From positions 1,860,001 to 1,924,000 of the forward strand of contig NC_015416.1 in the NCBI RefSeq assembly GCF_000204415.1: a stretch of DNA of 64,000 bases. The letters are read 5' to 3'. Made by a program: the position numbers and the translations under genes. The stretch comes from Methanothrix soehngenii GP6. Its GTDB lineage: Archaea > Halobacteriota > Methanosarcinia > Methanotrichales > Methanotrichaceae. The notes under the pieces were generated by a model, which did not search any database, was not told the DNA's origin, and was given only the letters and a program-made list of their open reading frames with translations. Shown piece by piece: positions 37,336 through 39,455 of the stretch (position 1 is its first letter; each line of letters begins with the position of its first letter).

Positions 37336-37491
37336 GGTCGTGATCCTAAAATAGGTTGAAGTTTCTAAAACTCGATTAACGATTGCGGTCTCTCGGACGC
37401 GCTCGAGAGAGGACATTCTGGGCAAATCAGCATTCAATGATGCCTAATTCTGCTGCAGGCCTAAATACCAACCCATAATTGATTCACGACC
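37336..37491. mobile_element. MITE copy 2 with 8-bp target duplication
   Basis: 156 bp, starting GGTCGTGATCC and ending ...GATTCACGACC. Inverted terminal match GGTCGTGA/TCACGACC. Direct repeats GGCAATTG at 37328-37335 and 37492-37499 mark the target site. Internal hairpin TCTCTCG/CGAGAGA at 37389-37410. Copy 1 at 26400 is the same element. The transposase that would move it is not in the window; it lies 50 bp upstream of the DPH6-like gene. Confidence 0.85.
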
Positions 37492-37541
37492 GGCAATTGC
37501 TCTCAGGCCATAATTGTGTATCAGATTTGATAGGGAGAGAG

Positions 37542-38210
37542 ATGAATTTGAGAAATGCAGTCGTCTCCTGGACGGGAGGAAAGGATGGATGCTTATCCTG
37601 CTATAAAGCGATGCAAGAGGGATGGCGGGTCAATTATCTTCTCAGCTTCAGGAATATATCACGGATCGGATCTCATGATATAAATCCAGAGCTGATTCTG
37701 GCCCAGTCAGAGGCAATTGGAATTCCACTCATTCATAGGGAATTCACCTCCTATGAGCAGGAGTTCAAGAGGACCATTCTGGATCTTCGCGCCAATGGGG
37801 AGAAGATCGATGGAGCTGTTTTCGGCCATATCCAGACCCACAAAAAATTGGTGGACAGGATCTGTACTAGTTTAAATCTAGATCTACTGCTGCCCCTATG
37901 GCAACAGGATTCGAGGAAGATCTTAAAGGAGATCACAGGTTTGGGCTTTGAGGTGATAGTGATAAGCGTCAAGGATGGCCTCATGGGCAGAGAATGGCTG
38001 GGCAGGAGGATTGATGAAGAATTTTCTGAGGATCTGAAGGATCTGGACCAATCCATTGACCCCTGCGGAGAGAATGGGGAGTTTCACACCATCGTCACAG
38101 ACGGCCCGATCTTCAAGAAGAGGATTATATTGTCCGGAAGCGAGGCGGTATTGAGGGAAGGCTACTGGTTCCTCAACATAAAGGAGTTTTCAATTGAGGA
38201 AAAGTTATGA
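37542..38210 (+). CDS. DPH6-like diphthine-ammonia ligase/ATP pyrophosphatase
   Basis: 222 residues from ATG at 37542 (GGGAGAG upstream). The frame is open earlier, but that part lies inside the MITE. PP-loop-type nucleotide site SWTGGKDGCLSCYKA, and family strings YLLSFRNIS, GAVFGHIQTHKKLVDRI, LPLWQQDSRKI, IDPCGENGEFHTIVTDGP and FKKRII. The archaeal relatives form diphthamide on elongation factor 2 (final amidation with ATP). The PP-loop here reads WTGGKDG rather than SGGKDS, seen in this family. Alternative: a non-diphthamide member of the MJ0570-related group. Confidence 0.8.
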   Translation: MNLRNAVVSWTGGKDGCLSCYKAMQEGWRVNYLLSFRNISRIGSHDINPELILAQSEAIGIPLIHREFTSYEQEFKRTILDLRANGEKIDGAVFGHIQTHKKLVDRICTSLNLDLLLPLWQQDSRKILKEITGLGFEVIVISVKDGLMGREWLGRRIDEEFSEDLKDLDQSIDPCGENGEFHTIVTDGPIFKKRIILSGSEAVLREGYWFLNIKEFSIEEKL

Positions 38211-38468
38211 CGAAGCCCTCATTGAAAGCGTCCCCTCGCATGGGCCCCAGACATGCTTGTTTTATGGGGAACGCCCCTGGCAGCAAATCTCAAGCGATTT
38301 TGCCTGCACAATCTGTTGGATGGAAGAAAAAATCTGCCAAGCAAAATATTTTTAATACTTGCGTGCTACAACACATAATATGCCTGGACTCGCTCATACA
38401 AAGAAAAGGCTAAATATGAATAAACATAACTGCCTTCGCAGACATGTGAGAACAAAGGAGGGTTTAGT
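38211..38468. other. Intergenic gap, no supported gene
   Basis: About 258 bp. A 68-codon frame starts on the ATGA of the previous stop but has a low-complexity basic product and no motif. GGAGG at 38457-38461 is the ribosome binding site of the next gene. Nothing else seen. Confidence 0.35.
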
Positions 38469-39455
38469 ATAAAGAAAGTATTAGTTAAGATAGGATTAGT
38501 ATTAATTTTTCTGCTGCTAATCACAGGAATTACCTGGGCAGGAAAATACGATATGAATCCTGGAAGAGAAGCGATCAAGTATAAGCATGAGATGACCGAT
38601 GATGTAACCGGACAGGGCTTTGCTGTGGAGTATAAGAGTATAAATACAAATAACCTCTCCCTGCTGGAGTACTACCATGGCAGCGGATCCGTGGATATGG
38701 CCGATATACTCAACTCCCAGCAGAAGACCACCAGCGGCTCCTACTACTACCTGGACTACGATGGAACAATGAAGAAAGCATTAAAGGGTGCTAACAGCGT
38801 CGTCAGCTACACCAGGCAGTATGATAATGTCCAGTCGCCTACTACATTTGCCTATGGCACTGGCTGGTATGCCGCGAATCCCATTGAGTACAATTCCCTT
38901 ATCAAGGATAAGACCGAGGCCCGGAGCTATCAAGAGTCTGCGTCAATGCACCGCCAGGTGGAGTATGCTCATGCTCTCAAAGGAGACATTGCTGTGGACA
39001 TCAACTGTACTGGACCCACAGCCGAGACAGATGGCGTGGGCATTCTCAGCATGAAGATCGATGACGATGTTTTTCAGGGTACCCTTCACATAGGTGAGCT
39101 GCTGTTGAGCCCCAATGTGAATCCCAAGGTGGACCCCGAGGGAAAGAAAAAGATTAAGCCAAATACAATTGATCCCATAATCGAGGTTCAAAATGACTAC
39201 ATCGGCAACTTCCAGGTTCAAAAGACGATGAAGCTGGAGATTACCAAGGACAGAGAGACCTCTCAGAAGGACTGGCTCCCCTGCTGCATGGGCGGCTTCT
39301 TCGACCTTCCATCCTATAACTTCAATGTACAGTACGCCAGCTGGAAGGGAATATTCGACTGCTCCTGCCGGGAGGAATCAATCTCCACCATGAAACCAGC
39401 GTGGAACACGACAAAAGCACAGTTCCCCACGCAGGAGTATCAGTTTAAGCCCTGA
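38469..39455 (+). CDS. Secreted hypothetical protein with apparent ATA start
   Basis: 328 residues if translation starts at the ATA at 38469-38471: the frame then reads IKKVLVKIGLVLIFLLLITG, ending in ITWA, a typical signal peptide, with a perfect GGAGG ribosome binding site 7 nt upstream (38457-38461). The first ATG in frame is at 38553, after the signal peptide. The mature protein has beta-rich strings (SGSYYYLDYDGTMKKA, VDINCTGPTAETDGVGIL, WLPCCMGGFFDLPSY) and several Cys near the C terminus. No membrane anchor. Family unknown. Alternatives are a start-codon mutation or a sequencing error. Confidence 0.7.
   Translation: MKKVLVKIGLVLIFLLLITGITWAGKYDMNPGREAIKYKHEMTDDVTGQGFAVEYKSINTNNLSLLEYYHGSGSVDMADILNSQQKTTSGSYYYLDYDGTMKKALKGANSVVSYTRQYDNVQSPTTFAYGTGWYAANPIEYNSLIKDKTEARSYQESASMHRQVEYAHALKGDIAVDINCTGPTAETDGVGILSMKIDDDVFQGTLHIGELLLSPNVNPKVDPEGKKKIKPNTIDPIIEVQNDYIGNFQVQKTMKLEITKDRETSQKDWLPCCMGGFFDLPSYNFNVQYASWKGIFDCSCREESISTMKPAWNTTKAQFPTQEYQFKP

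Follow-up and report, generated by a model that had tools for sequence, protein, structure and literature searches.

A predicted secreted-protein gene of Methanothrix soehngenii GP6 probably starts with AUA, a codon that recurs at start positions in Methanotrichaceae

Organization of the locus

The window analyzed in this study is a 64,000-nt stretch of the genome of Methanothrix soehngenii GP6 (3,026,645 bases, two contigs). The gene of interest, referred to below as the window gene, has as its neighbors a diphthamide-synthase-type gene (37479-38210) and a PLD-domain gene located on the opposite strand. The following features were distinguished (evidence in brackets):

38410..38417, plus strand: TATA-like box CTAAATAT (direct read)
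38416..38472, plus strand: chance-like upstream ORF of 18 codons, ending in a TAA that overlaps the ATA (ATAA) (start survey of family rows)
38457..38461, plus strand: Shine-Dalgarno (SD) sequence GGAGG, with a spacer of 7 nt to the ATA (direct read)
38469..38471, plus strand: predicted ATA start codon (alignment with ortholog start codons)
38469..39455, plus strand: predicted gene of a 328-aa secreted protein (ORF, orthologs, and paralogs in the family)
38469..38540, plus strand: signal peptide of 24 residues (sequence; model helix 2-22; hydrophobic ortholog N-termini)
38553..38555, plus strand: ATG, the first canonical codon in frame, 28 codons past the ATA and beyond the signal peptide (frame scan)

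The sequence around the ATA reads ...gagaacaaaGGAGGgtttagtATAaagaaagta... The initial annotation of this DNA had pointed to a perfect GGAGG 7 nt ahead of an ATA at 38469, to a signal peptide encoded by the codons that follow it and to the only in-frame ATG as lying past that signal peptide. All three claims were borne out: the first by direct reading, the second by the signal-peptide character of residues 1-24 (IKKVLVKIGLVLIFLLLITGITWA) together with a helix spanning residues 2-22 of the predicted structure, and the third by the position of ATG 38553. The reading frame is open for 13 codons upstream of the ATA and downstream as far as the stop codon (39453-39455); in the open frame 5' of the ATA and in the first codons of the gene, no in-frame ATG, GTG or TTG precedes ATG 38553. 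The cleavage site of the signal peptide would be placed after WA. Judging from the TATA-like box, the transcript would begin approximately 25 nt past it, leaving a 5' leader of about 30 nt; in the orthologs, a similar ATTAAATATTA is located about as far upstream. The ATG of the 18-codon upstream ORF sits within the TATA-like box, and this ORF is therefore probably untranscribed; its frame is not conserved in the ATG orthologs.

A gene caller restricted to ATG, GTG and TTG would pick ATG 38553, the first canonical in-frame start, which is preceded by a weak AGGA 8 nt upstream, and the product would then be a protein without a signal peptide. Such a start is highly improbable, considering that the orthologs start with signal peptides (hydrophobic N-termini equivalent to that of the window protein were found in them), that this ATG lies past the conserved cleavage region, and that the perfect SD sequence precedes the ATA instead.

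Searches for the function of the window protein gave no Pfam family match, no NCBIfam match above the cut-off (with a single sub-threshold match) and no PDB sequence match. Its predicted structure is beta-rich (mean pLDDT 76.9), and a Foldseek search with this model yielded nothing at E <= 0.001, the weak hits having a meaningless TM-score of ~0.1. The major sheath protein MspA (60.9 kDa), considered as a possible identity, is too large for 328 aa and was set apart by size alone.

Start codons of the orthologs

Fifty genomes of the family were searched with the window protein and its paralog; together with extra regions, this gave a family set of 123 rows. Repeated entries (L002, L030, L031 and L032, equal to L039, L044, L047 and L042) were left out of the family table. 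A start was assigned in 102 of the 123 rows, while the 21 unassigned ones comprise 8 of the 44 rows of clade A, to which the window gene belongs, and 13 of the 79 rows of the paralogous clade B. Rows L038 and L115 were scored as ACG despite an ATG two codons downstream. Most of the assigned rows have a GGAGG-type site at the homologous place, with a spacing of 6-8 nt.

The homologous codon in clade A (44 rows, 36 assigned) is ATG in 29 cases, ATA in three and TTG in two, and two rows were mis-picked. By these counts ATG is usual at the start of the window gene and ATA is the exception. Since most orthologs have ATG at this place, the ATA position is that of the start codon, and a change from ATG to ATA would have occurred in the window lineage. 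On the terms of the initial annotation, which had set the codon of relatives as the test of its proposal, 29 ATG rows out of 36 formally speak against an AUA start; we read them as marking the start position and, together with the ATA rows, as pointing to a repeated ATG-to-ATA change.

The three ATA rows (the window gene, L005 and L016) lie on separate branches of a 34-row tree, in which L005 is sister to the ATG row L008 with support of 100/100 and the end branch of the window-gene row (L001) is long (0.63). The window genome shares the ATA with just two other genomes, and the codon is not inherited clade-wide. For the ATA rows, pairwise and partly saturated estimates of dN vs. dS are 0.241 vs. 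1.34 (L001-L007), 0.085 vs. 0.836 (L005-L008) and 0.215 vs. 2.73 (L016-L011). With pairwise dN far below dS, the window gene appears to be under purifying selection despite its ATA. The pattern suggests that ATG changed repeatedly to ATA in genes that remained intact, which would amount to three AUG-to-AUA changes in a small clade.

Conserved ATA of cbiG within cbiF

The first codons of cbiG overlap the end of cbiF (TP_methylase), which encodes Arg-Ser-His-Leu-Tyr there in a different frame and ends 16-31 nt past the cbiG ATA. The start-position codon of cbiG takes its first base from the wobble position of the cbiF leucine codon and its other two from the beginning of the tyrosine codon, and as a consequence of this coding constraint it must be NTA and never ATG. 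ATA was found in all 49 genomes with a match (50 searched), in each case with GGAGG 8 nt ahead, so that the leucine wobble base, which is free with respect to cbiF, is A in 49/49. Across 47 cbiF rows (L199 and L210, whose cbiF frame is short, were left out), the wobble base was compared in the 16 conserved leucine columns: it is the same in every row solely in the column at the cbiG ATA and varies in the other 15. Leucine codons ending in A are a minority in cbiF, and the AGG within the cbiG SD sequence is likewise invariant in the 47 rows. Selection beyond the coding of cbiF looks to be keeping AUA at the start of cbiG, and we regard this gene as the strongest case of an AUA start. The cbiF-cbiG overlap constitutes an experiment-free comparative test, in which selection on the start codon can be read from a single synonymous base.

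No in-frame canonical start occurs upstream of the ATA in 43 of the 49 cbiG rows, while the other six have one; 33 of the 49 have none either upstream or within at least 20 codons downstream, and in seven a canonical codon lies 5-6 codons downstream of the ATA. A CbiF-CbiG fusion produced by frameshifting, instead of a separate cbiG start, is conceivable, but a slippery sequence was not seen.

A search of named genomes returned the motif in 40/40 Methanotrichaceae-type records (L244-L283), which are largely the same genomes repeated. Ten outgroup rows, eight of them named as Methanomicrobiales groups, have the same overlap with wobble C (eight rows) or G (two rows) and an ATG two codons on. 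In a further outgroup, a euryarchaeal record with 41% identity (L287, ~1450-1510), cbiF and cbiG are joined in this way too, with ATA and, five codons later, a TTG; the AUA form may predate the family or have arisen twice.

These observations bear on the possibility that the change from ATG to ATA broke the start of the window gene, leaving it silent or nearly so and on the way to becoming a pseudogene. The ATG of most orthologs and the long end branch of L001 would fit such a course, which we nevertheless consider unlikely: the 328-aa ORF is intact and its SD sequence retained, dN is well below dS in all three ATA rows (pairwise, partly saturated values that are also compatible with a recent loss in the window strain), the identical change is found on three separate branches, and the AUA of cbiG appears to be maintained by selection. 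As to the mutated start named in the initial annotation, the ATG of most relatives indicates a change of ATG to ATA in the lineage, but not a loss of translation.

Screens of genome samples and fdhC

A sample of the window genome (G000; 864 kb, 659 gene calls) was screened for non-canonical codons preceded by GGAGG at a distance of 5-9 nt, on condition that the frame held no canonical start upstream and that the nearest one downstream was 10 or more codons away. Of the 28 positions returned, eight, distributed over five loci, scored positive for coding over the stretch reaching to the following canonical start. ATA was in register at three of these five loci: the window gene, cbiG and the formate/nitrite transporter gene fdhC. 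Both fdhC and cbiG have the arrangement GGAGG-8 nt-ATA and lack a canonical start upstream. Inside genes, ATA accounts for 22 of the 1171 codons that follow GGAGG; measured against this figure, ATA at three of five loci exceeds chance, in a comparison made post hoc.

The homologous codon of fdhC was compared in 24 rows (a fragment, L193, was left out): ATG is present in 19, while the other five carry ATA, CTG, ATT, TTG and GTG, respectively. In the ATA and ATT rows a canonical start is missing both upstream and over 22 codons downstream. The CTG of L178 was rejected as a forced start, since in-frame GTG and TTG codons lie upstream of it.

In an SD test of the 864-kb sample, ATG (60 observed vs. 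11.2 expected) and TTG (18 vs. 5.0) were enriched; the enrichment of ACG was weak (5 vs. 1.8), and neither ATA (6 vs. 4.0) nor CTG (7 vs. 6.2) was clearly enriched. Genome-wide relaxed initiation was rejected on these grounds, and the unremarkable values of ATA and CTG also count against an AUA start of the window gene.

The same screen gave the ATA of cbiG and one CTG in a genome of the same family (G063, 337 genes), and one ATT in a genome of another family (G049, 300 genes); in both genomes it also matched codons other than near-cognates. A higher rate of near-cognate codons in the family than elsewhere is not supported, the G049 control having a candidate too. Individual loci were also recorded: (i) L387 of G049 (minus strand, 8261), with GGAGG-7 nt-ATT ahead of a coding frame that has its next canonical start 52 codons later, possibly an AUU start outside the family; (ii) L413 of G063 (plus strand, 9884), with GGAGG-7 nt-CTG ahead of a 283-codon frame and the next canonical start 29 codons on; (iii) L141 of the window genome (minus strand, near 1031), a frame directly after a stop codon, with GGAGGGAAAGAAT ACG and an ATG 8 codons on, a possible ACG start; and (iv) L159 of the window genome (plus strand, from 9691), an ABC-transporter-like coding frame without a canonical start for 38 codons and with no clear SD sequence.

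The initial annotation had also allowed for an assembly error. A wrong base call, with G as the true base at 38471, would match the ATG of most relatives; it is most unlikely, because ATA occupies the same place in two other assemblies and because ATA starts are found in two further genes of the window genome, one of them common to 49 genomes. The ATA in two other genomes, the intact ORF with dN lower than dS, and the cbiG ATA in 49/49 together make an error confined to a single genome unlikely.

Near-cognate codons in the paralog clade

The paralogous clade B, represented by one copy in the window genome (L002/L039), carries CTG at the homologous position in 39 rows, drawn from six genera (L126 was left out of this count), and never any other leucine codon in these; within the signal peptides of the CTG rows, CTG makes up 24 of 153 leucine codons. 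A canonical in-frame start is absent upstream in 21 of the 39 rows, and in five of these 21, 8 or more codons pass before one appears downstream. The remaining starts of clade B are TTG (18 assigned, some doubtful) and ACG (six). The ACG paralogs (L089, L091, L092, L096, L098 and L101) have GGAGG-7 nt-ACG and were not counted as forced because each also has an in-frame TTG upstream. From the row counts of CTG, TTG, ACG and ATA it follows that a near-cognate codon at this place is common in the family.

Two upstream elements accompany clade B loci. A 21-nt element, ATCAACAGATTAAAATAGGTG, lies ~60-95 nt upstream of the CTG in L039 and at other clade B loci, and near some rows of other genera too; with up to 2 mismatches it occurs as one copy per genome in 19 of the 41 genomes searched, and it is probably a conserved promoter or regulator site. 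An inverted repeat, TTGACCTTC...GAAGGTCAA, is located ~15-55 nt upstream of the ACG in the six ACG paralogs; its first bases form the in-frame TTG, a possible real start of these genes.

The contexts of these codons might also point to termination-reinitiation, whereby a ribosome finishing an upstream frame, whose stop codon overlaps the start, would resume translation at the near-cognate codon. In the family set, an A follows the codon in 3/3 ATA and 40/40 CTG rows, giving ATAA or CTGA, many members of the CTG clade have a short ATGGAGGGATTGATCTGA frame, and the end of cbiF falls 16-31 nt past the cbiG ATA. However, the A is accounted for by codon 2, which in most rows encodes a Lys or Arg belonging to the signal peptide. 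Moreover, the upstream ATG of the window lies inside the TATA-like box, several CTG rows (L055, L057 and L061) have no upstream ATG, and the ACG and fdhC cases occur without such an overlap. We therefore hold reinitiation to be improbable as the main mechanism. It could contribute, most plausibly in cbiG, where coupling to cbiF is plausible and would fit an AUA start; it is not needed for the window gene.

Initiation machinery

The initiator of the window genome is an ordinary tRNA-Met(CAT) with the anticodon arm GGGCTCATAACCC, and the initiator tRNAs of five relatives are alike. A 13-base initiator-tRNA pattern was matched in 55 of 60 genomes, although some of the matches (L346, L351 and L352) are not tRNAs. 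The initiation factor aIF1 was found in 59 of 60 genomes, and its loop 1 resembles that of other families (readable at 26 of 30 loci). An initiator tRNA or aIF1 altered in the lineage was rejected, as both look normal. According to the part of the work on Sulfolobus and Pyrococcus drawn on here, aIF1 disfavors non-AUG codons (PMC6237735); given this, the presence of an ordinary aIF1 in the family of the window genome counts against an AUA start.

Discussion

In our best reading, gene 38469-39455 is very probably translated from a functional AUA start codon, as had been proposed in the initial annotation; the alignment of ortholog starts, dN lower than dS and the cbiG ATA in 49/49 genomes all support this. 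After a change of AUG to AUA in the window lineage, the strong SD sequence (GGAGG, 7 nt) would set the AUA in the ribosomal P site, where the ordinary initiator Met-tRNA would recognize it in spite of a C-A mismatch in the third position; Met would be the first residue of the protein, ahead of a normal signal peptide. We propose that the AUA is tolerated because the SD sequence is strong. Parallels within the family would be AUA in cbiG, AUA or AUU in some fdhC genes and CUG in the paralog clade; in cbiG the overlap with cbiF would rule out AUG in place, with selection keeping the AUA. The sequence, the alignment of ortholog starts, the recurrence of the codon, its conservation and the synonymous constraint in cbiF are direct observations. 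From them we infer initiation at AUA, decoding by the initiator tRNA, Met as the first residue and the yield of protein.

For Methanotrichaceae as a whole, sequence comparison makes it likely that AUA is a working and selectively maintained start codon, used family-wide in cbiG as the overlap forbids AUG, and reached repeatedly elsewhere with strong SD sequences, beside CUG and AUU. The archaeal start repertoire would then extend past ATG, GTG and TTG, and standard annotation would truncate N-termini such as those with signal peptides. If true, a conserved AUA start would provide a natural setting in which to examine the handling of mismatched start codons by archaeal initiation (aIF1, SD strength), and it would mean that annotation confined to three codons puts starts in the wrong place and conceals signal peptides. 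Some archaeal genes may thus start in ways that annotation software disallows.

A search of titles and abstracts of open-access literature found no report of an archaeal AUA start, and a tuberculosis study, in the passage concerned, refers to AUA generally as a rare start (PMC9094748). The relevant part of a 2020 review names AUG, GUG and UUG only as archaeal start codons (PMC7531240). The initiation described there resembles that considered here in being SD-led and in relying on Met-tRNAi, aIF1, aIF1A and aIF2; it differs in its codons, since AUA, and by alignment also CUG and AUU, stand at start positions in the present data. A study of start-codon switches in 36 triplets of prokaryotes gives, in the figures drawn on here, two changes to CUG and one to AUU for 61,358 ancestral AUG codons, and the term AUA is absent from its text (PMC5622118). 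Like the present analysis it counts start-codon changes between close relatives, whereas here three AUG-to-AUA changes would fall in one small clade.

The cbiF-cbiG overlap of Methanomicrobiales (rows L288-L318) shares with that of Methanotrichaceae the gene order and a CbiF ending in R-S-x-L-Y; in the former, cbiG begins at an ATG located two codons farther on and the wobble base is C or G, whereas the latter lack such an ATG and have A at the wobble position. In Escherichia coli, infC and pcnB start with AUU. These genes likewise have, as their start, a codon one base off AUG with an SD sequence; in contrast to them, the cases described here involve an archaeal ribosome with its factors and AUA rather than AUU, they give no sign of autoregulation by an initiation factor, and the codon of cbiG is fixed by the overlapping gene.
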